In this document: positions 18,720-29,486 of the stretch, piece by piece
Position numbering within the stretch: position 1 is the stretch's first letter
Layout: each line of letters starts with the position of its first letter
Assembly: GCA_020073665.1 (NCBI GenBank)
Contig: JAIQEU010000017.1
Location: forward strand, 1 to 64,000
Direction: 5' to 3'
From: Terriglobia bacterium
Lineage (GTDB): Bacteria > Acidobacteriota > Terriglobia > Terriglobales > Acidobacteriaceae
Length of the DNA stretch: 64,000 nucleotides
Notes under the pieces: model-generated
Database searches by the model: none
What the model saw: only the letters and a program-made list of their open reading frames with translations
What the model was told of the DNA's origin: nothing
Made by a program: the position numbers and the translations under genes

Positions 18720-19613
18720 ATGTCTCGAATCGTGCGCTGTGGCCTTATCCAGGCGAGGAACGTGCTTGATAGCGGCCATTCCCTGGCTGCAATCAAGAAA
18801 GCCATGATCGACAAGCACCTCAAGCTGATCGAGCAGGCAGCGCGCAAGAAGGTCAAGATTCTTTGCCTGCAGGAACTGTTTTACGGACCTTATTTTTGCG
18901 CCGAGCAGAATATTCGCTGGTACGAACTCACGGAGCGCGTGCCCGACGGGCCCACCATCAAGCTGATGCAGAAAGTTGCCGCGAAACACCGCATGGTGAT
19001 CGTGGTTCCGGTTTACGAGGAAGAGATGGCCGGGCTGTATTTCAACACCGCCGCGGTCATCGACGCCGATGGCCGATACCTCGGCAAGTACCGTAAGCAC
19101 CACATTCCTCATGTGCATCCCGGATTCTGGGAGAAGTTCTACTTCACGCCCGGGGACCTTGGCTACACGGTCTTCGAGACCAAGTACGCTCGCGTCGGAG
19201 TGTACATCTGCTATGACCGCCATTTTCCGGAAGGCGCGCGCGTCCTGGGGCTGAACGGAGCGGAAATCGTGTTCAATCCTTCCGCGACCGTCGCTGGATT
19301 GTCAGAATACTTGTGGGAACTGGAGCAGCCCGCGCATGCGGTGGCGAATGGGTATTTTGTCGGGGCCATCAACCGGGTGGGCACGGAGAAGCCTTGGAGC
19401 ATTGGCGAGTTCTATGGCAAGAGTTACTTCTGCAATCCGCGCGGGAAGATCATGGCGCAGGCGAGCCGGGACAAAGACGAGGTGGTGGTCGCCGATCTGG
19501 ATCTCGACATGATTCAAGAGGTGCGAAGGGTGTGGCAGTTTTTCCGTGACCGCCGCCCTGAGACCTACGCTCCGCTCACAACGCAGACTGGACGAACTGC
19601 GGCTGCGGATTGA
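18720..19613 (+). CDS. Beta-ureidopropionase-like nitrilase (N-carbamoyl-beta-alanine amidase)
   Basis: A 297-residue carbon-nitrogen hydrolase. The Glu-Lys-Cys triad is E52 (CLQELFYGPYF), K126 (GKYRKHHIP) and C164 (YICYDRHFPEG). The blocks NGAEIVFNPSATVAGLSEYLW, ANGYFVGAINRVGTE and VRRVWQFFRDRRPETY match the eukaryotic-type beta-ureidopropionase closely. It would hydrolyse N-carbamoyl-beta-alanine to beta-alanine, CO2 and ammonia, the third step of reductive pyrimidine breakdown. N-carbamoylputrescine amidase is the main alternative. GGAGG (18709-18713) precedes the ATG. The next gene is an NCS1 permease, and dihydropyrimidinase lies at 28095, which supports the pyrimidine role. Confidence 0.85.
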   Translation: MSRIVRCGLIQARNVLDSGHSLAAIKKAMIDKHLKLIEQAARKKVKILCLQELFYGPYFCAEQNIRWYELTERVPDGPTIKLMQKVAAKHRMVIVVPVYEEEMAGLYFNTAAVIDADGRYLGKYRKHHIPHVHPGFWEKFYFTPGDLGYTVFETKYARVGVYICYDRHFPEGARVLGLNGAEIVFNPSATVAGLSEYLWELEQPAHAVANGYFVGAINRVGTEKPWSIGEFYGKSYFCNPRGKIMAQASRDKDEVVVADLDLDMIQEVRRVWQFFRDRRPETYAPLTTQTGRTAAAD

Positions 19614-19648
19614 ATCCGCAGAGAATCACCCGCAAAGCAAGGACGCCA

Positions 19649-21076
19649 ATGTCCATCGCCCCAGAGTCGTTGCATTCTCGCATTGAATCCAGCCCGCTCT
19701 ACAACCCCGACCTTGCGCCAGCCGGCCCGGAGCGCCGTCACTGGGGAACCTACAATTACGCCGTGCTGTGGGTATCGATGTCGGTCAATATTCTCACCTA
19801 CATGCTGGCCGCAAGCCTGATCCAGGGAGGCGTGAACTGGAAACAGGCGGCGGCGACGGTGTTCCTGGGCAATACCATCGTGCTGGTCCCCATGCTGCTG
19901 AATTCGCATCCGGGGGCGCGTTATGGAATTCCGTTTCCAGTGCTGGCGCGGGCATCGTTTGGGGTGTTGGGCGCAAATGTGGCTGCAGTTTTACGTGCAC
20001 TAGTGGCGTGCGGATGGTTTGGCATCCAGACCTGGATCGGCGGCGAAGCCATCAGTACGCTGCTCGGAGTATTAGCCCCGGGGTGGGGACAGTTCGCGCA
20101 CCGCACCGCAATTTGTTTCCTCGCCTTCTGGCTCATCAACCTGGCGGTCATTCTCAAGGGGATTGAGTACATCCGTTTCCTGCAAGGCATCAGTGCACCA
20201 GTTTTGTTGGCCGTGGGTCTGCTGTTGCTGGCGTGGGCGTATCACAGCGCGGGCGGTTTCGGACCCATGTTGTCGGCGCCTTCGCGGCTCGCGAACTTCG
20301 CGGACTTCTTGAAATTCCTGGTGCCGGCGCTGAATGCCACCGTGGGCTTCTGGGCGACCGTGTCTCTGAATATCCCCGACTTCACGCGTTTTGCGCGCAG
20401 CCAACGGCAACAGATGATTGGGCAGGCATTGTCTCTGCCCACCACCATGACGCTGTATTCGCTGATCGGGATCCTTGTAACTTCGGCGACGGTGGTTATC
20501 TACGGGACGGCGATCTGGGACCCGGTTCAACTGCTCAGCCGGTTTCATTCGCCCGTGGCGGTGGTGATTTCCCTGGTGGCGATTCTGCTGGCCACACTAA
20601 ATGTGAATATCGGGGCCAACGTGGTTTCGCCGGCGAACGATTTCTCCAACTTGTGGCCGCGAAGGATCAGTTTTCGGACCGGAGGCGTGATTACTTGCTT
20701 CATGGGAATCGCCCTGATGCCGTGGAAAATGCTGGCCAACTATCGGACGTTTATCCTGGGGTGGCTGGGCGGTTACGCCGCGTTGTTGGGACCAGTGGCG
20801 GGCATCATGATTTGCGACTACTTCCTGGTGCGCCGGCGAGTGCTGCTGTTGGATGACCTCTACCTGCGCCGGTGTGCTTACGAGTATTCCCATGGTTTCA
20901 ACTGGCGGGCGCTGGCGGCGCTGGCCGCGGGAGCAGGGACCGCACTGGTCGGGCTCGTAGTTCCCCAGGTTCGGGTGCTCTACGACTATTCGTGGTTCGT
21001 GGGGTTTGTGGTTGCCTTCGTGGCGTATTACGTCCTGATGGGGTCTCAGCGCGCAACAGCGCCAGCCAGTGCCTGA
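19649..21076 (+). CDS. NCS1 family nucleobase/hydantoin:cation symporter
   Basis: A 475-residue transporter with about 12 hydrophobic helices. It has the family's N-terminal motif ERRHWGTYNYAVLWVSMSVNI, the RYGIPFPVLARASFG block, the GWFGIQTWIGGEA motif of helix 3, WATVSLNIPDFTRFA and NFSNL-like VSPANDFSNLWPRRISF. This is the PucI/FurE/Mhp1 group that imports uracil, allantoin or hydantoins. The ATG at 19649 with AAGGA ahead is chosen; an earlier TTG would place the start in the preceding gene. It follows the amidase by 35 bases, so uptake and breakdown of a pyrimidine or hydantoin are probably cotranscribed. Confidence 0.87.
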   Translation: MSIAPESLHSRIESSPLYNPDLAPAGPERRHWGTYNYAVLWVSMSVNILTYMLAASLIQGGVNWKQAAATVFLGNTIVLVPMLLNSHPGARYGIPFPVLARASFGVLGANVAAVLRALVACGWFGIQTWIGGEAISTLLGVLAPGWGQFAHRTAICFLAFWLINLAVILKGIEYIRFLQGISAPVLLAVGLLLLAWAYHSAGGFGPMLSAPSRLANFADFLKFLVPALNATVGFWATVSLNIPDFTRFARSQRQQMIGQALSLPTTMTLYSLIGILVTSATVVIYGTAIWDPVQLLSRFHSPVAVVISLVAILLATLNVNIGANVVSPANDFSNLWPRRISFRTGGVITCFMGIALMPWKMLANYRTFILGWLGGYAALLGPVAGIMICDYFLVRRRVLLLDDLYLRRCAYEYSHGFNWRALAALAAGAGTALVGLVVPQVRVLYDYSWFVGFVVAFVAYYVLMGSQRATAPASA

Positions 21077-21100: not shown

Positions 21101-23743
21101 ATGGGACTCGCCAACGGCACCAAACTCGGTCCCTACGAAATCCAATCGCCGCTCGGCGCAGGTGGCATGGGAGAGGTGTATCGCGCCCGCGATACCCGGC
21201 TCGAGCGCGAGGTAGCGGTCAAAGTTCTCCCAGCCAACTTGTCCACAGATCCGTCTTTGCGGCAACGGTTGGAGCGGGAAGCCAAAGCGGTTTCGAAACT
21301 ATCTCATCCTCACATCTGCACCCTGCACGACATCGGCCAGCAGAATGGCGTGGACTTTCTGGTCATGGAACTGCTCGAAGGCGAGACCCTGGAGCAGCGG
21401 CTGATGAGAGGGGCGTTGCCGCCGGAGCACGTGATCCGTTACGCGGCGCAGATTGCCGATGCGCTGGCCAAAGCCCACAAGCTTGGCATCACCCATCGCG
21501 ACCTGAAACCTTCGAACGTCATGCTGACCAAGAGCGGTGCCAAGCTTATGGACTTTGGCTTGGCAAAGCAGTCGGGGCCCGCTCCGCTGGCGGCGGCGCT
21601 GACGGCGATGACCATGGACCAGGCAAAGCTGACCAGTGAAGGCATGCTGGTGGGCACCTTCCAATACATGGCGCCGGAACAGTTGGAAGGAAAAGAAGCC
21701 GACCCGCGGACCGATATTTTTGCCTTGGGCGAACTGATTCATGAGATGGCGACGGGCAAAGCGGCGTTCACGGGAAACAGCCGCGCCAGTCTGATTGCAG
21801 CCATCTTGACCACGGATCCTCCTCCTATCAGCCAGTTGCAGCCTTTGACCCCGCCTGCGCTGGAGCGGGTAGTCAAGAAATGTCTGGCCAAGGACCCCGA
21901 CGCTCGCTGGCAGAGTGCCAGCGATCTGGCCAGTGAGTTGAACTGGATTGCCGAAGCGGGGTCGCAGGCGGCAGGGCGCGGGTCGCAGGCGGTAGTCTCC
22001 AGCAGATGGCTGCGTGCGGGCTGGCTGGTGGCCGCCGCGTTCTTTTTGCTGATGCTGGCAGCCGGCGTGGCCTGGTGGCAGGCAGGCGACCGGCATCTGC
22101 CGGCGATGTATTTCCACACGGCCGTGCCGTTTCCCACCAATGACCTGGCGCTGTCTCCCGATCAGCGGACCGTCGCGATGGTCGCGTATTCGGCGCAGGC
22201 CAACGACTACGTGCTATGGACCTACGAGGTTGGGGGCCGGCGGAGCACTCCTGTCGAGGGGACGCAAGGCGCTTCGTACCCGTTCTGGTCGCCGGACAGC
22301 CGTTCGATAGGGTTCTTCGCCGACGGCAAACTCAAGAAGGTAGACGTTACGGGTGGGCAGTCGCAGGTGGTCTGCGACGCGCCCAACGGACGTGGGGGCG
22401 CGTGGAACCGGGACGGAGTGATCGTGTTCTCGCCCGACGCGCTGGGCGGGTTGTTCCGCGTGTCCGCCACGGGAGGCTCTCCGATTGAATTGACCAAGCT
22501 GGACAAGTCACGATTCGAATCCAGCCATCGCTGGCCGGTGTTCCTGCCGGACGGAAAACATCTTATCTATCTGGCCGCCAACTTCAGTGGAAAACCGGAG
22601 ATGAACGCGATTTTTCTGGGCTCGCTGGATTCTACCGATAGACGCCTGCTGGTGAGCAGCACCGCCAACGCGGCCTATGCAGATCCTGGCTATCTGGTTT
22701 ACCTGCGCGACAAGACCCTGGTCGCGCAGCCGTTCGATCGGCGCAGCTACGCTCTGAGCGGCGAGGCGCACGCCTTGAGCGATGAAGTTCTCTTTCTCCC
22801 GCAGGTGGACAGGGCGATTTTCAGTGTGTCCAGCGAGGTGCTGGTCACACAAACCGGAAAAGGCGCATACCTGTCGCAGTTGACGTGGTTTGACCGCAGC
22901 GGTAAGCCGGTGGGCACGGTCGGTCAACCTGGGTGGTACGACAACGTGCGCCTTTCGCCCGACGGTCGCCGGGTAGCGGCCGACCAGACCGATCCGGACG
23001 GGCGAAACATAGATGTTTGGGTCCATGAACTGGCCCGTGGCACTGCGACCCGCATGACATTCCATCCGGCTCTGGATCAATCGCCGGTGTGGAGTGCCGA
23101 TAGTCAGAAAATCCTGTTCGCCTCCAACCGCACCGGCAACTTCAGCTTATATCTGAAAAATGCAGATGGCTCCGGCTCCGAAGAGCAGTTGGCCGACCTG
23201 GGCGCTGCCTTGTTCAACCCCTGGGACTGGTCGCGTGACGGCAAGTACATACTTTTCAGGAAGGCAAACGAACTGGGGTATTTCACCTGGCCAGAGCGGG
23301 TGGCGACCACGCTGATGCAGGCAAAGTGGACGGTGCGGGGGGCACAGTTCTCCCCGGATGGCCGCTGGATCGCATACGCCTCGAATGAGACCGGCAACAT
23401 GGAGGTCTACGTCTCGCCATTCCCCAGTATCAACGGCAAGTGGCAAGTGTCGAGCGCCGGCGGGCAGGAGCCGAAGTGGCGAAACGACGGCAAGGAATTG
23501 TTCTACGTATCAGCCGACGGAAAGATCATGGCGGTCCCGGTGTCAGCCGGCGCCAGCTTCGAGGCGGGCACAGCGGTGGCGCTGTTTCAAACCCACCGCC
23601 GGCAGCCCATGTCTTCGCAGGACCTTTTCTCTTACGACGTGAGCGGCGACGGGCAGAAATTTCTGGTCGCCACCAAGCTCGACGAACCCAGCGCCGCCCC
23701 CCTGTCGGTTCTTCTCAACTGGACGGCAGAGATAGAGAAATAG
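21101..23743 (+). CDS. Ser/Thr protein kinase with C-terminal TolB-like beta-propeller
   Basis: An 880-residue membrane kinase. Kinase domain at residues 12-285: glycine loop GAGGMGEVY (19-27), Lys41, catalytic HRDLKPSN with D134, DFG at 151-153 and APEQ at 191-194. A single transmembrane helix at 306-326 separates it from about 540 extracytoplasmic residues with repeated propeller blades (SPDQRTVAMV, SPDSRSIGFFADGKL, SPDGRRVAADQ, SPDGRWIAYASNETG). This is a large family in Acidobacteriota, generally of unknown ligand. No paired ECF sigma factor is adjacent. It begins 24 bases after the permease, so may be cotranscribed by read-through. Confidence 0.92.
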   Translation: MGLANGTKLGPYEIQSPLGAGGMGEVYRARDTRLEREVAVKVLPANLSTDPSLRQRLEREAKAVSKLSHPHICTLHDIGQQNGVDFLVMELLEGETLEQRLMRGALPPEHVIRYAAQIADALAKAHKLGITHRDLKPSNVMLTKSGAKLMDFGLAKQSGPAPLAAALTAMTMDQAKLTSEGMLVGTFQYMAPEQLEGKEADPRTDIFALGELIHEMATGKAAFTGNSRASLIAAILTTDPPPISQLQPLTPPALERVVKKCLAKDPDARWQSASDLASELNWIAEAGSQAAGRGSQAVVSSRWLRAGWLVAAAFFLLMLAAGVAWWQAGDRHLPAMYFHTAVPFPTNDLALSPDQRTVAMVAYSAQANDYVLWTYEVGGRRSTPVEGTQGASYPFWSPDSRSIGFFADGKLKKVDVTGGQSQVVCDAPNGRGGAWNRDGVIVFSPDALGGLFRVSATGGSPIELTKLDKSRFESSHRWPVFLPDGKHLIYLAANFSGKPEMNAIFLGSLDSTDRRLLVSSTANAAYADPGYLVYLRDKTLVAQPFDRRSYALSGEAHALSDEVLFLPQVDRAIFSVSSEVLVTQTGKGAYLSQLTWFDRSGKPVGTVGQPGWYDNVRLSPDGRRVAADQTDPDGRNIDVWVHELARGTATRMTFHPALDQSPVWSADSQKILFASNRTGNFSLYLKNADGSGSEEQLADLGAALFNPWDWSRDGKYILFRKANELGYFTWPERVATTLMQAKWTVRGAQFSPDGRWIAYASNETGNMEVYVSPFPSINGKWQVSSAGGQEPKWRNDGKELFYVSADGKIMAVPVSAGASFEAGTAVALFQTHRRQPMSSQDLFSYDVSGDGQKFLVATKLDEPSAAPLSVLLNWTAEIEK

Positions 23744-23919: not shown

Positions 23920-25377
23920 ATGGACGTTCTCCAAAAACTATTTGAGCAGCATTTCCGCTCCCCGGTGTTGCGGATGCAGCCGCTGCAGGGTCAGCTGGGC
24001 GGATCAGGGCGTAACATCGTCCGGCTGGTCGGAGACAGATTCAGCGCAATCGGCATTCGCTACGACGTGCGCGAAGAGAACGTAGCGTTCCTTGAATTTT
24101 CCCGGCATTTTCGGGGGCACGGCCTGCCGGTGCCGGAAATCTATGCGGAAGATCTGAGCCAGGGCGCTTATCTGGAAGAGGATCTGGGCGATACCACGCT
24201 TTTCGAGTTTCTCTCGAATAATCGTTCCGGAGAGAATATCGCTCCTCAGGCCGTAGACGCGTATCGCAAGGTTGTGGCCGTGTTGCCGCGCTTTCAGGTC
24301 GAGGCCGGCCGTGATTTGAATTACAAGGTGTGCTACCCGCGGGCCAGCTTCGACAGGCAGTCCATCGCCTGGGATTTGAACTACTTCAAATACTATTTTC
24401 TGAGGCTGGCAGGAATTCCTTTCAACGAGCAGGCTCTGGAGGACGATTTCAGCCGCTTGACGAAATTTCTACTGAGTGCCGCGCACGATTACTTTCTCTA
24501 CCGTGATTTCCAATCCCGCAACATCATGTTGCGCGACGGCCAGCCGTTTTTCCTCGACTATCAAGGCGGCCGCAAAGGCGCGCTGCAGTACGACATTGCC
24601 TCTCTCCTATATGACGCAAAGGCCGATCTACCACCGGAGTTGCGGCAGCAACTGCTCGATCACTATCTGGACAGCCTGTCCGGTTTCATCAGGCTGGAGC
24701 GCGCGGCGTTCATGCAGCACTACTACGCCTACGTGTATGTCCGCATCATGCAGGCCATGGGGGCTTACGGGTTTCGCGGGTTCTACGAGCGCAAGACTCA
24801 TTTTCTCCAGAGCGTGCCGTATGCGCTGACCAATCTACGCTGGCTGCTGCACAACGTGGAGTTGCCGATCACGCTGCCTACGCTTTTGGACGCGTTCAAG
24901 AGCATGCTGGGCTCGGAGAAACTGCAGGCTCTAGCTTCGGGTGCGGAGGCAGAAAAGGCGACGGCTGCCGAGACAGAAAAGCTGACGGTGCGGATTTTTA
25001 GTTTTTCTTTTCACAAGGGCTTGCCCAAAGACGAGACCGGGCACGGCGGCGGATTCGTGTTTGATGGACGCAGCCTGCCAAACCCAGGTCGCGAGGAGCG
25101 CTTCAAAGCGCTCACGGGCAAGGACAGGCCGGTCGCCGATTACCTGGACCAGCAGGCCAGCGTGCACCAGTTTCTGTACAGCGTGCAGTCGCTCGTGGAC
25201 TGCAGCGTGAATGAGTACCAGCGTCGCGGCTTCAAGAACTTGATGGTTTCGTTCGGTTGTACCGGCGGACAACACCGCTCAGTGTACCTGGCAGAGCAAC
25301 TGGCGAAACATTTGCGCAGCCAGAACGGGCTGGAGGTACGGTTGCGGCATCGTGAGTTGGAGACGGCAGGCGAATGA
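23920..25377 (+). CDS. AmgK-like cell-wall sugar kinase fused to a RapZ C-terminal domain
   Basis: A 485-residue two-domain protein. Residues 1-335 are an aminoglycoside-phosphotransferase-fold kinase with YRDFQSRNIML (catalytic D196) and FFLDYQGG (metal Asp 213), as in AmgK, the anomeric MurNAc/GlcNAc kinase. Residues 356-481 match the RapZ C-terminal domain: VRIFSFSFHKGLP, FVFDGRSLPNP, LTGKDRPVADYL, VSFGCTGGQHRSVYLAEQLA and VRLRHREL. In E. coli that domain senses glucosamine-6-phosphate and binds small RNAs. The start is the ATG at 23920; GGAGG lies 15 bases upstream, rather far. Its end overlaps the MurU-like gene by ATGA. An Ala/Glu/Lys linker (340-354) joins the domains. Confidence 0.85.
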   Translation: MDVLQKLFEQHFRSPVLRMQPLQGQLGGSGRNIVRLVGDRFSAIGIRYDVREENVAFLEFSRHFRGHGLPVPEIYAEDLSQGAYLEEDLGDTTLFEFLSNNRSGENIAPQAVDAYRKVVAVLPRFQVEAGRDLNYKVCYPRASFDRQSIAWDLNYFKYYFLRLAGIPFNEQALEDDFSRLTKFLLSAAHDYFLYRDFQSRNIMLRDGQPFFLDYQGGRKGALQYDIASLLYDAKADLPPELRQQLLDHYLDSLSGFIRLERAAFMQHYYAYVYVRIMQAMGAYGFRGFYERKTHFLQSVPYALTNLRWLLHNVELPITLPTLLDAFKSMLGSEKLQALASGAEAEKATAAETEKLTVRIFSFSFHKGLPKDETGHGGGFVFDGRSLPNPGREERFKALTGKDRPVADYLDQQASVHQFLYSVQSLVDCSVNEYQRRGFKNLMVSFGCTGGQHRSVYLAEQLAKHLRSQNGLEVRLRHRELETAGE

Positions 25378-26096
25378 AAGCCATGATTCTGGCGGCCGGC
25401 CTGGGTACGCGCTTGCGGCCGCTGACCGACGACCGCCCCAAGGCGCTGGTGGAAGTCGCTGGCCACACGCTGCTGGAGATCACACTAACCCGCCTGCGCA
25501 GCTTCGGGATTACTGAGGTGATCGTCAACCTGCATCACTTCGCTGACATGGTTGTCGAATATCTCAAAGCCAACCATTATTTCGGCATTCACGTAGAGAT
25601 TTCCCGCGAAGAGATCCTGCTCGACACCGGCGGAGGGTTGAAGAAAGCAGCGTATTTCTTCGGCAAAGAAGACCCGTTCGTTTTGCACAACGTCGATGTG
25701 ATCAGTACCATCGATTTGCGGCGCATGCTGGAAATACATGCGGAGCAACAAGCGCTGGCCACGATGGCGGTGCAAGACCGCGCAACCTCGCGGTATTTGC
25801 TCTTCGATGAGAAGCTTCAGCTTTGCGGCCGGCGGGCGGGGCGCGATGAATTAGTGCGATCGGTGTCGCCAGTGCAGGCTTTGGCGTTTTCAGGAATACA
25901 TGTTATTTCCCCTCGTATTTTTGGTCTGATGAGCGAGGAGGGCGTTTTTTCGATTGTCACGTCCTATTTGCGCCTGGCGGGTCAGGGCGAAAAACTCCTA
26001 GGCTTTCGCGCCGATGAATATTATTGGCGCGACCTGGGGAAGCCGGAGAATGTGGCTCGGGCGGAGGAGGATGTGCGACGATTCGGACTATTGTAG
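25374..26096 (+). CDS. MurU-like sugar-1-phosphate nucleotidyltransferase
   Basis: A 240-residue nucleotidyltransferase with the signature AMILAAGLGTRLRPLTDDRPKALVEV, the second-site ILLDTGGGLKKA, HNVDVIS with the metal Asp, and a C-terminal YYWRDLGKPENV block. Length and form match MurU, which makes UDP-MurNAc from MurNAc-1-phosphate. It is coupled by a 4-base overlap to an AmgK-like kinase, the standard partner in the peptidoglycan-recycling route that bypasses de novo MurNAc synthesis. It could also act on another hexose-1-phosphate, but the partner makes recycling the best reading. Confidence 0.85.
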   Translation: MKAMILAAGLGTRLRPLTDDRPKALVEVAGHTLLEITLTRLRSFGITEVIVNLHHFADMVVEYLKANHYFGIHVEISREEILLDTGGGLKKAAYFFGKEDPFVLHNVDVISTIDLRRMLEIHAEQQALATMAVQDRATSRYLLFDEKLQLCGRRAGRDELVRSVSPVQALAFSGIHVISPRIFGLMSEEGVFSIVTSYLRLAGQGEKLLGFRADEYYWRDLGKPENVARAEEDVRRFGLL

Positions 26097-26194: not shown

Positions 26195-26926
26195 CTACTT
26201 GGGTGCAGATAGCGATTCTAGCTGGCCCTTGGCCCAGGTGTCGTCGGGATGCAGTTCCACTACTTTGCGGTAGTCTGATTTGGCCTTCTCGATCTCTCCA
26301 TTGGCTTGGTGTGACATCGCAAGCATGTGATATGCCCAAACAGATTGCGGACTGTTCGAGGCGAAATTGAGTTCCATGACTGTAACCGCGTCTTTGTTCC
26401 TGCCTTTTGCCAGGAGAAACTCCGCAAGCTGATTCAGGGGCGTCTCGCCAAAGTCGTACTGGCCGGTTCCGTAGTACCGCTTACGTAGATCGCGGTACAT
26501 GTTGATCGCTGCGTCGACGCCTTGTTTGTCGGCAGCCTCAATGAGGAGCGCCCGCAAGGGCTGCGGTTGCGTGAGCCCGCGATGGCAGGTTACGCATTCC
26601 ACCTGGATCGGGCTTGCCTTGCCTATCTTGCCGACGTAATCGCGGTTGATGGTCGCAACCATCTGCAGCATGACCCGCGCGGTTTTCTTGGTGTCGAGGT
26701 CATCAGCCGCGTAGTCAAAGCCCTGACCCGGCCTTTGTACGTGACAATACGGACAACGGACGTCAAGCGCGAAAGCAAAGCCGCGCATCGTGGACTGTAG
26801 ATCAGCCTTCGGGATGTCCTTCGGCAACACCTGCAAATTCGTGAACTTGTCGGGAAACTGCGCTACGGCGGGAAGGGTTAACAGGAGTATCACCAGCACA
26901 GACATTTTTTGAGCTGCGAAGTGCAT
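26195..26926 (-). CDS. Exported dihaem c-type cytochrome with TPR-like C-terminus
   Basis: A 243-residue protein with signal peptide MHFAAQKMSVLVILLLTLPAVAQ, then two haem-attachment motifs: CPYCH at 58-62 and CVTCH at 111-115. The region VLPKDIPKADLQSTMRGFAFALDVRCPYCHV recalls the acidobacterial cytochromes annotated as photosynthetic-reaction-centre-cytochrome-like, but this is from memory. Residues 165-240 are helical and TPR-like (VWAYHMLAMSHQANGEIEKAKSDYRKVVELHPDD). The ATG at 26926 is chosen because it starts the signal peptide; GGAG is about ten bases upstream. Probably a periplasmic electron carrier of unknown partner. Confidence 0.82.
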   Translation of the reverse strand: MHFAAQKMSVLVILLLTLPAVAQFPDKFTNLQVLPKDIPKADLQSTMRGFAFALDVRCPYCHVQRPGQGFDYAADDLDTKKTARVMLQMVATINRDYVGKIGKASPIQVECVTCHRGLTQPQPLRALLIEAADKQGVDAAINMYRDLRKRYYGTGQYDFGETPLNQLAEFLLAKGRNKDAVTVMELNFASNSPQSVWAYHMLAMSHQANGEIEKAKSDYRKVVELHPDDTWAKGQLESLSAPK

Positions 26927-26993
26927 AGGGACTTGGCTCCATCTGGAATTCGACGATGTTTGGGTGCCCGCAGTCGTCATCTCGCATGGCATG

Positions 26994-28001
26994 CTACGGT
27001 TTCGCTACTTCTCGCCGGAACGCAGGCATGATTTCCCGGCGATACAATTCCAGAGTCTGTTCCTCTTCGCCGCACATCAGGTAGACATTGAACTGAGTCA
27101 CTCCTACGCCTGCGAGCGCTCGCAACTTTTCGCGGTGGGCCTCGGCGGGACCGACCAGGCAGAAGCGGTCTACCACTTCGTCGGAGACGAATTTCGAGTT
27201 GCTGCTGTCGACTTCGCAGTGTTGCTGGTAATCGTAGCCGCCGCGATTGCGGACGAACGACGTCAGCATTGGTGGAAGTTCCTCGGGACGGTAGCGCGAG
27301 AGCAGGTCCACGACGTGGTTCGAAACCAACGCGGGGAACCAGCGTACTTGTTTCCTCGCCAGCTCGAGGTCATCGGAAACCCACACCGGCGCCGCTGCCA
27401 TGACTTGAATCGCCCGCGGGTCACGGCCGGCGGCCTCCGCGCCCTTCTTAACGAAGCCCAGACACCAGGCGATAAGGTCGGGATCAGCGAATTGCAAAAT
27501 CACGCCGTCTGCGACCCGGCCCGCCAAGTCGAGCACCTTGGGTCCGTAGCCCGCGATCCATACCGGAGGAGAGCCATTCGCCCAGGACAGCCGGGTCGGC
27601 TGGCCTTCGTAATCAACCTCGCGGCCGGCGGTAAGTTCGCGGAAGGTTTTGACGGCGCGCTCCAGATCTCCGGCTCCGACCGGCTTTTTGCCTAGCACTC
27701 GCCGAGAACTATCGCCGCGGCCAATGCCCAGGTCCATGCGGCCTTCGGAAATTAGGTTCAGCGTGGCGAACAAGCTGGAGGTCACGGTGAGATCGCGCAC
27801 CGCGGGATTGGTCACGCATGTGCCCAGACGCATGTTGCGGGTGTTGGTGGCCATCAGCGTAAGCAGCGGGTACGGCTCCAGCCACAAGACGTGAGAATCG
27901 AAGATCCATCCGTATTGAAATCCTGCCGCTTCGGCTTGGCGGGTGAGGGCCACGATGCGATCCACCGGCATGTCGGGCTTAAGTGTGATACCGAACTGCA
28001 T
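26994..28001 (-). CDS. LLM-class flavin (FMN/F420)-dependent oxidoreductase
   Basis: A 335-residue TIM-barrel luciferase-like enzyme: FGITLKPDMPVDRIVALTRQAEAAGF at the N-terminus, LGTCVTNPAVRDL, SEGRMDLGIGRGDSSRR (the cofactor-binding GRGD block), and PPVWIAGYGPKVLDLAGRVADGVILQF. It belongs near the methylenetetrahydromethanopterin-reductase-like subgroup, for which F420 or FMN is usual. It is divergent from dihydropyrimidinase, with a 93-base shared promoter region. The dehydrogenase expected for the first pyrimidine-reducing step is not seen, so a role in that pathway is suspected but unproven. The ATG at 28001 is the natural N-terminus of the family. Confidence 0.85.
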   Translation of the reverse strand: MQFGITLKPDMPVDRIVALTRQAEAAGFQYGWIFDSHVLWLEPYPLLTLMATNTRNMRLGTCVTNPAVRDLTVTSSLFATLNLISEGRMDLGIGRGDSSRRVLGKKPVGAGDLERAVKTFRELTAGREVDYEGQPTRLSWANGSPPVWIAGYGPKVLDLAGRVADGVILQFADPDLIAWCLGFVKKGAEAAGRDPRAIQVMAAAPVWVSDDLELARKQVRWFPALVSNHVVDLLSRYRPEELPPMLTSFVRNRGGYDYQQHCEVDSSNSKFVSDEVVDRFCLVGPAEAHREKLRALAGVGVTQFNVYLMCGEEEQTLELYRREIMPAFRREVAKP

Positions 28002-28094
28002 GACGTTGGCTCCCCGTCACAATCGAAATCGCCACTCGGAGGAGGGGCAGTTTAGCATAAAATGCGGGCTCGGCTGGTCAGAGGAAACATCCAC

Positions 28095-29486
28095 ATGGGC
28101 TTCGACACCATCATCGTTAATGGCCGGGTAGTCACGGCAACTGACACCTATTTGAGCGATGTCGCCATCAGCCAAGGCAAGATCGCGGCGATCGGGCAGA
28201 GCCTGCCTCGCGAAAACGCCACGCGTGTCATCGACGCCGCGGGAAAGTACGTGCTGCCCGGCGGGATCGACGTGCATACCCATCTCGACATGCCCTTCGG
28301 CGGAACGACTAGCGCGGACGATTTCGAAACTGGTACCCGCGCCGCGGCGTTTGGCGGGACAACCACTCTGATTGATTTTGCCATCCAGTACAAGGGCCAG
28401 ACTCTACGGACGGCGTTCGACGCCTGGATGCAAAAGGCCTCCAGCAAGGCGGTTTTTGATTACGCGTTTCATTGCATCATCACGGAACTGGCTGATGCGC
28501 AATTAGAAGAGATGAACGCGCTCGTTCGAGAAGGCGTCACCAGCTTCAAGCTGTTCATGGCGTATCCCGGTGTATTCATGCTGGACGATGGCAGCATCTT
28601 CAAGGCGCTGCGCACCACGGCGAAGAACGGCGGCCTGGTCTGCATGCATGCGGAAAACGGCAGCGCCATTGACGTCATCGTGCAGCAGGCCCTCGCCGAA
28701 GGCAAGAAAGCTCCGAAGTACCATGCCTTGACCCGGCCCACGACGGCGGAAGCGGAAGCCACCGCACGAGCGATCGCACTGGCAGAGATGGCAGGGGCGC
28801 CAGTTTACATCGTGCATTTGAGTTGTAACGATGCGCTGGAAAAAGTCCGCGAGGCACGCGATCGCGGGCTACCGGTTTATGCCGAGACCTGTCCGCAATA
28901 TCTTTATCTTTCCATCGAAAACTTCGACGTTCCGGGATTCGAAGGAGCGAAATACGTTTTCACTCCGCCGTTGCGGGAGAAATGGCATCAGGAAAAGCTC
29001 TGGAACGGGCTGAAGCAGGACCATCTGCAAGTGGTGTCCACCGATCATTGTCCGTTCTGCTTCAAGGAGCAGAAGGAGTTGGGGCGTGATGACTTCACCA
29101 AGATCCCTAATGGCGGGCCGGGCATTGAGCACCGCATGAGCCTGATCTATTCCGGCGGCGTGGCTGGAGGCCGGTTCAGCGTCAATCGTTTTGTGGAGCT
29201 GGTTTCCACCACTCCCGCGAAACTTTTCGGCCTGTATCCGCGCAAGGGCACGATAGCCGTGGGCAGTGATGCTGACCTGGTAATTTTTGATCCCAATCGC
29301 AAGTACACCATCAGCGCCAAGACCCATCACATGCGGGTGGACTACTCCATGTTCGAAGGAATCCAGGTCACCGGGATGCCGGATGCGGTGCTCTCGCACG
29401 GCCGGGTGATTGTGGACGGGGACAAGTTCTTAGGGCGGGCGGGCGCGGGCGAGTTCATCAAGCGATCGACTTATTCCCAGCCGTGA
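28095..29486 (+). CDS. hydA: Dihydropyrimidinase (D-hydantoinase)
   Basis: Hydrolyses dihydrouracil or hydantoins to N-carbamoyl amino acids. The 463-residue protein has the binuclear-metal ligands H61 and H63 (PGGIDVHTHLDMPFGG), the carbamylated Lys K152 (TSFKLFMAYPG), the HAEN block, VHLSC, and the metal Asp of VVSTDHCPF. The family block IPNGGPGIEHRMSLIY is intact. The ATG at 28095 is preceded by GAGGAAA. Its product would be the substrate of the beta-ureidopropionase at 18720. The two genes are 8.5 kb apart, an unusually split arrangement. Divergent neighbour: LLM oxidoreductase. Confidence 0.93.
   Translation: MGFDTIIVNGRVVTATDTYLSDVAISQGKIAAIGQSLPRENATRVIDAAGKYVLPGGIDVHTHLDMPFGGTTSADDFETGTRAAAFGGTTTLIDFAIQYKGQTLRTAFDAWMQKASSKAVFDYAFHCIITELADAQLEEMNALVREGVTSFKLFMAYPGVFMLDDGSIFKALRTTAKNGGLVCMHAENGSAIDVIVQQALAEGKKAPKYHALTRPTTAEAEATARAIALAEMAGAPVYIVHLSCNDALEKVREARDRGLPVYAETCPQYLYLSIENFDVPGFEGAKYVFTPPLREKWHQEKLWNGLKQDHLQVVSTDHCPFCFKEQKELGRDDFTKIPNGGPGIEHRMSLIYSGGVAGGRFSVNRFVELVSTTPAKLFGLYPRKGTIAVGSDADLVIFDPNRKYTISAKTHHMRVDYSMFEGIQVTGMPDAVLSHGRVIVDGDKFLGRAGAGEFIKRSTYSQP

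Follow-up and report, generated by a model that had tools for sequence, protein, structure and literature searches.

What does a domain of the RapZ C-terminal type do when it is joined to a sugar kinase? The question is raised by a gene in the 64,000-nucleotide stretch of DNA analysed here (the window), in which an open reading frame of 485 aa from its ATG (23920-25377) links an APH-fold kinase to a RapZ_C-type domain and runs through an ATGA overlap (25374-25377) into the gene for a MurU-like nucleotidyltransferase. All features of this pair lie on the + strand. A preliminary description, made from the letters of the sequence, had named these three parts and the overlap, had linked them to MurNAc recycling and had proposed that the added domain senses GlcN6P within the protein and so controls its kinase; a search with the RapZ profile, a structure prediction and a survey of fusions in Acidobacteriota were its suggested checks. 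The parts, the overlap and the link to MurNAc recycling are borne out by our analysis, and the domain fusion and the gene pair are certain. The role of the fused domain is the subject of what follows.

The fusion gene and its MurU-like partner

The N-terminal part of the fusion (about residues 1-345; 23920..24954) matches APH (PF01636, Pfam) over residues 52-250 with E=1.6e-13. It carries the RDxxxxN motif and the metal-binding Asp of APH-fold kinases as R195-D196-x4-N201 and D213, and D196, N201 and D213 are invariant in the 31 rows of alignment A1, which combines the window with 30 of the 80 loci described below (a second alignment, A2, combines the window with 23). The catalytic roles given to these residues are those usual for the APH fold. 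In Foldseek, the model of the full fusion matches best to a putative aminoglycoside phosphotransferase, 3csv. Against the AmgK equivalog NF045698 the fusion scores 62.2 bits, below the cut-off of 500, and in a second AmgK equivalog test 47.5 bits, below the cut-off of 550 (both NCBIfam). With scores so far under the cut-offs, "AmgK-like" is the correct strength of name for the fused N-terminus. A variable linker follows (about residues 346-352; 24955..24975), delimited by low pLDDT and length variation: pLDDT falls below 50 over residues 341-352, and the other rows of A1 have a shorter linker. The remainder (24976..25377, stop codon included) is the RapZ_C-type domain, a proposed MurNAc-6-P phosphatase, delimited by its model and by RapZ_C (PF22740), which matches residues 356-481 with E=6.9e-37, exactly the span that had been assigned to it from sequence.

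The partner (240 aa; 25374..26096) matches NTP_transferase (PF00483, E=3.7e-25, Pfam). MurU (NF045761) is its best-scoring NCBIfam family and matches over the full length, yet the score of 133.3 bits stays below the cut-off of 250, and further nucleotidyltransferase families match the protein too; under that cut-off, "MurU-like" is the name of correct strength. By such cut-offs the pair is not AmgK or MurU proper. The pairing recurs among the relatives of the fusion: in 71 of the 77 loci with an intact fusion a MurU-like gene lies at most 400 bases downstream (66 found by motif and 5 by tblastn, one of these 5 cut by a contig end), while 5 loci have no MurU-like match and 1 has no room for the gene.

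Beyond MurU, no other neighbour family occurs in more than 6 loci when genes are called as longest open frames. The list of neighbour proteins holds 118 entries, of which 112 were scanned (3 of the 6 omitted are the MurU gene itself), and murQ accounts for 3 of the 112 scanned next-door genes, as counted among the 25 commonest families listed in tallies of 193 and 522 families. In three acidobacterial loci (L042:5541-13029, L055:5568-17390 and L056:5477-13454) murA and murQ adjoin the fusion-MurU pair divergently, and a gene with GH3 beta-N-acetylhexosaminidase-like and beta-lactamase domains stands nearby in L042 and L056 and further off in L055. In some Acidobacteriota this neighbourhood thus resembles a small island of MurNAc genes; the murQ-murA adjacency in the three loci may represent one single event. 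Large genes that follow MurU in three other loci were considered as NagZ and rejected, being a Snf2-type helicase in L086, a PD-(D/E)XK nuclease in L096 and a protein without a match in L093.

The C-terminal domain compared with RapZ

The AlphaFold model of the domain (mean pLDDT 90.9) aligns with E. coli RapZ structure 5o5s over 123 residues with Z 20.3 and rmsd 1.5, and the structure prediction thus assigns it the RapZ_C fold, as the profile search did. The next fold matches after RapZ are phosphofructokinases, from Z 6.6, and neither a Cys-dependent (PTP-type) phosphatase nor a PTP or low-molecular-weight PTP fold is among the best 50 matches listed in either fold search. Since the fold is that of RapZ_C, it is not the HAD fold of MupP, with which the domain could have no more than its function in common. 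The architecture of full-length RapZ is likewise absent, the N-terminus being an APH kinase and not a P-loop domain, and the RapZ equivalog NF003828 reaches 121.2 bits against a cut-off of 244, over the C-terminal half only. In a tree of 74 rows and few columns, in which two dense groups were thinned and L002, L065, L071, L126 and L127 were left out, a 100/100 branch separates the fused and split domains from RapZ. The C-terminal domain is therefore RapZ_C by fold but not RapZ, and the fusion is a member of neither RapZ nor MupP. With RapZ and YvcJ it shares the C-terminal domain fold and the C-x5-R-S pocket; unlike them, it has no N-terminal RapZ domain, carries Gly at position 190 and a G[HN]GGG insertion, forms a separate clade, and occurs in its fused form in genomes that have no second RapZ_C.

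Residue counts over 80 fusion loci and 30 acidobacterial RapZ loci, with rows chosen without any motif, locate these differences. The stretch D371-x2-G-[HN]-G-G-G (residues 371-378; 25030..25053) is specific to the fused and split subfamily: D371, G376-G378, D382, G390 and D402 are present in 80/80 fusion loci, whereas the RapZ loci have D382 and no Gly at 376-378, where they show mostly gaps or A, D. Position 390 corresponds to H190 of E. coli RapZ and is Gly in all 80 fusion loci; the 30 RapZ loci have H (24), Y (5) or F (1). The proposed GlcN6P pocket of E. coli RapZ consists of H190, T248, G249, H252 and R253 (PMC5737377), and H190A is reported to abolish the regulatory activity of the protein (PMC9841335). 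The preliminary description had named a loss of the GlcN6P-contacting residues as evidence against a sensor, and this loss is found at position 190, the other four of the five being kept in the fusion, which does not have the full RapZ pocket.

The kept part of the pocket includes the loop C447-T-G-G-Q-H-R453-S454 (25258..25281), a C-x5-R-S pattern, which is the signature of Cys-dependent phosphatases, a likeness also drawn by Khan and Goerke. Its letters C, T, G, G, H, R and S are found in 79/79 fusion loci reaching the loop (1 locus is cut off), and the same C-T-G-G-x-H-R-S loop occurs in 30/30 RapZ loci and 10/10 further Bacteroidota loci. In the domain model, strand 94-101 ends at the Cys and helix 107-120 begins at the Arg, the strand-loop-helix placement of C-x5-R-[ST]. 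For E. coli RapZ, the loop has been likened to the PTP phosphatase loop (PMC7199280), and C247S is reported to inactivate the protein (PMC9841335). The loop between strand and helix is what the domain has in common with Cys-dependent PTP-type phosphatases, whereas its overall fold is nearer to RapZ and phosphofructokinase. Both alignment A1 and the 80-locus count show the invariance centred on the phosphate pocket. The basic positions K170, R238 and K270 of E. coli are occupied by H/K/R/Q, Phe and aliphatic residues, respectively, in 87 fusion rows, which include a few duplicate loci and were found with a pattern that already demands most letters of the loop; acidobacterial RapZ, too, mostly lacks K270.

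Distribution, natural splits and co-occurrence with AnmK and MurQ

A scan of genome contigs gave at least 590 stretches, and at least 583 relatives were confirmed by tblastn, some perhaps through one domain only. The 80 loci kept carry titles from Acidobacteria, Elusimicrobia, Calditrichaeota/KSB1, Neomarinimicrobiota, Bacteroidetes, Ignavibacteriales and Opitutae; the RapZ_C part is encoded in all of them, and most match near full length at 49-83% identity. The kinase-RapZ_C architecture is thus widespread in several phyla. The suggested survey of Acidobacteriota recovered the full fusion in 5 of 199 genomes, all five from the window's family, and in Bacteroidota a profile match at E<=1e-60 is present in 25 of 198 genomes. 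Within a literature coverage that leaves out most subscription journals, no title on RapZ with AmgK, phosphotransferase or fusion, Bacteroidetes, phosphatase or cysteine, N-acetylmuramic, or peptidoglycan recycling names the fusion, and the relevant passages of the RapZ and phosphatase papers are silent on it.

The fusion loci led to 40 genomes. A second RapZ_C is present in 17 of them and absent in 23; here, as in the other genome counts, an absence may reflect an assembly gap. By title, 6 of the 17 are Acidobacteria(ceae), 8 are Elusimicrobia and 3 are given simply as "bacterium"; in the tree, these 3 group with rows that bear Elusimicrobia titles. The window's own genome has a separate full-length RapZ (356.6 bits, cut-off 244). 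The 23 genomes without a second copy indicate that the fused form is independent of RapZ.

A closer view comes from a sample of 198 Bacteroidota genomes, drawn from the phylum to which G226 belongs (its locus L096 is titled Bacteroidales) and scored for RapZ_C, the fusion profile, AnmK and MurQ, the last at E<=1e-30. RapZ_C was found in 24 of them, and all 24 have the kinase. In 20 of these genomes the domain is part of a frame of at least 476 aa, and in the other 4 it occupies a separate open frame of 134-149 aa: L112 and L113 have it as a gene of its own between kinase and MurU, in G269 a single stop, possibly a sequencing error, separates it from the kinase ahead, and in G418 its gene, of 133 aa, is on another contig and the kinase stands alone. 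The split domains nest within the fused clade. Working from a gene of its own, such a domain reads more readily as an enzyme than as a sensor built into the kinase, although it might instead be a trans-acting regulator. The sole kinase genome of the sample without RapZ_C is G247, where a kinase-MurU pair (L128, on G247:C44) occurs and neither AnmK nor MurQ was matched.

The search that led to MupP used co-occurrence with amgK and the absence of murQ (PMC5371407). In our Bacteroidota sample, the combination of AnmK present and MurQ absent is found in 8 of the 24 genomes with RapZ_C and in 0 of the 174 without it (Fisher 1.4e-8, genomes counted as independent). These eight genomes are not independent: G250, G333 and G255 cluster in the tree, G226, G243 and G418 stand elsewhere or have no resolved place, and the tree does not include G325 and G366. 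AnmK by itself is no marker of the fusion in Bacteroidota, where its frequency is 16/23 with the fusion and 120/175 without; the 23 match the profile over nearly the full length, three of them being split, and G418 is not counted with them. AnmK is missing from 7 of the 23, and both AnmK and MurQ from 6. The 40 fusion-locus genomes, a set with no fusion-free control, include 37 with AnmK above cut-off, and 11 of these 37 are without MurQ. The stronger notion that the fusion excludes MurQ everywhere is ruled out by the MurQ matches at E<=1e-30 in 27 of the 40 and by the window's family: the window's genome holds AnmK, MurQ and RapZ, and 20/20 sampled genomes of its family, with or without the fusion, hold AnmK and MurQ. 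Across the 199 Acidobacteriota, 43 have AnmK and no MurQ at E<=1e-30 and none of the 43 has the fusion, so other solutions exist. By match counts, 30 of the 43 also match the profile elsewhere than in RapZ_C, as any APH kinase could, and 13 are without a kinase-like match either.

A proposed salvage module and its alternatives

In Pseudomonas, AnmK makes MurNAc-6-P, MupP dephosphorylates it, and AmgK and MurU carry the sugar on to UDP-MurNAc, the etherase MurQ being the alternative outlet (PMC5371407, PMC13046382); E. coli K-12 deleted for murQ accumulates MurNAc-6-P (PMC5371407), and an AmgK from Tannerella forsythia is reported to work together with MurU in E. coli (PMC13041923). The present loci resemble this route, described for Pseudomonas and Caulobacter (PMC5371407, PMC13046382), in that a putative anomeric kinase adjoins a putative MurNAc-1-P uridylyltransferase, AnmK would supply MurNAc-6-P, and MurQ is missing in part of the genomes. 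They differ from it in that MupP is a separate HAD phosphatase, whereas the candidate phosphatase here, of RapZ_C fold, is joined to the kinase or encoded next to it, and in that the present proteins score below the AmgK and MurU equivalog cut-offs. We propose that the fusion and MurU form a two-gene module for direct MurNAc salvage, leading from MurNAc-6-P to UDP-MurNAc. MurNAc-6-phosphate would be made by AnmK, encoded elsewhere in the genome; the RapZ_C-type domain would remove the 6-phosphate by a cysteine mechanism, with C447 as nucleophile, R453 binding the phosphate and an invariant Asp (D371, D382 or D402) acting as general acid; the released sugar would be rephosphorylated at C1 by the AmgK-like domain on that chain; and the overlapping MurU-like enzyme would make UDP-MurNAc. 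The fused domain would thereby stand in for the HAD phosphatase MupP.

A role of the module in amino-sugar salvage is likely. That its RapZ_C-type domain is a MurNAc-6-P phosphatase is the best single explanation of the data, with a probability of roughly 0.58; the domains, the fold, the invariant residues, the gene order, the natural splits and the co-occurrence pattern are observed, and from them we infer the activity, the substrate and the acid residue. The phosphatase reading follows from the retention of C-x5-R-S in fusion and RapZ alike and from its strand-loop-helix placement, and MurNAc-6-P is suggested as the substrate by the pattern of AnmK without MurQ and by murQ-murA beside the fusion. 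Several results count against the proposal: both AnmK and MurQ are present throughout the window's family, the 43 Acidobacteriota with AnmK and no MurQ are without the fusion, AnmK alone shows no association with the fusion in Bacteroidota, where 6 of 23 fusion genomes have neither enzyme, three of the eight genomes with AnmK and no MurQ cluster in the tree, the AmgK and MurU scores stay under their cut-offs, and the 50 fold matches listed include no Cys-dependent phosphatase. A broader claim, to which we give slightly less than even odds, is that the RapZ C-terminal fold constitutes an unrecognised class of cysteine-based sugar-6-phosphate phosphatase, represented here by a MurNAc-6-P phosphatase joined to the next-acting kinase, so that a single chain would shift the MurNAc phosphate from C6 to C1, taking it off and adding it back. 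RapZ itself would in that case be a regulator derived from a phosphatase fold, and both its essential cysteine and the altered GlcN6P reported in RapZ crystals would be accounted for. A phosphatase in the fusion would supply the MurNAc-6-P phosphatase step in genomes of several phyla with AnmK and without MurQ (11/40 fusion genomes), and would offer an enzyme in which the puzzle of the RapZ pocket, with its essential Cys, its PTP-like loop and its transformed ligand, is directly approachable. The MurU route circumvents the de novo synthesis of UDP-MurNAc (PMC5371407), and its spread bears on wall rebuilding in these bacteria.

The idea from which the preliminary description had started, a domain that senses GlcN6P (or another amino-sugar phosphate, or UDP-MurNAc) and tunes the fused kinase allosterically, draws on the nanomolar affinity of the E. 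coli RapZ C-terminal domain for GlcN6P (KD 10 nM by SPR; PMC7073468), on the common fold and on the four kept pocket residues. We consider it unlikely, though it stays in contention. The position of H190 is Gly in every fusion locus and is accompanied by a new, fixed Gly-rich insertion, the linker is variable and of low confidence, and the separate frames in 4/24 Bacteroidota genomes are something that a sensor acting in cis would not need. The feature retained is, moreover, the phosphatase-loop signature, whose cysteine RapZ itself requires, and a sensor leaves the pattern of AnmK without MurQ unexplained. The domain could also serve for RNA binding or protein docking, in common with RapZ, and be free of ligand chemistry, as the binding of GlmY/GlmZ by the E. 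coli C-terminal domain alone would allow (PMC5737377, PMC9841335). We regard this as highly improbable: the RNA-binding part is described as restricted to Enterobacteriaceae (PMC7073468), of the three basic positions, that of K170 is H/K/R/Q and those of R238 and K270 are Phe and aliphatic in the fusion rows, invariance centres on the phosphate pocket, and 23/40 fusion genomes have no second RapZ_C.

A different doubt concerns the sugar. The same order of phosphatase, anomeric kinase and uridylyltransferase could serve a main substrate other than MurNAc, such as GlcNAc-6-P or an exopolysaccharide sugar phosphate. MupP, by comparison, is reported to prefer MurNAc-6-P strongly among sugar phosphates. 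The AmgK and MurU scores far under their cut-offs, the matches of the MurU-like protein to other nucleotidyltransferase families, the paucity of shared neighbours (besides MurU no family in more than 6 loci, and murQ in 3/112 next-door genes among the 25 commonest families listed) and the 7/23 Bacteroidota fusion genomes without AnmK would all fit such a substrate. The association with AnmK in the absence of MurQ and the three loci with murQ-murA beside the fusion speak against it, and we hold it to be quite improbable.

For the window's family, in which AnmK and MurQ occur together, the MurNAc salvage module would be a second outlet and not the only one. The genes around the pair in the window (19610-21076, 21101-23743, 26195-26992, 26994-28001 and 28062-29486) are of other kinds. 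Among them, an NCS1 nucleobase symporter (388 bits) and a dihydropyrimidinase (645.5 bits) score above their cut-offs and a PknB-type Ser/Thr kinase (290 bits) below its own, and two further genes look by inspection like those of a CxxCH/TPR protein and of a luciferase-like protein; the symporter and the dihydropyrimidinase beside the pair suggest the breakdown of pyrimidine or hydantoin.
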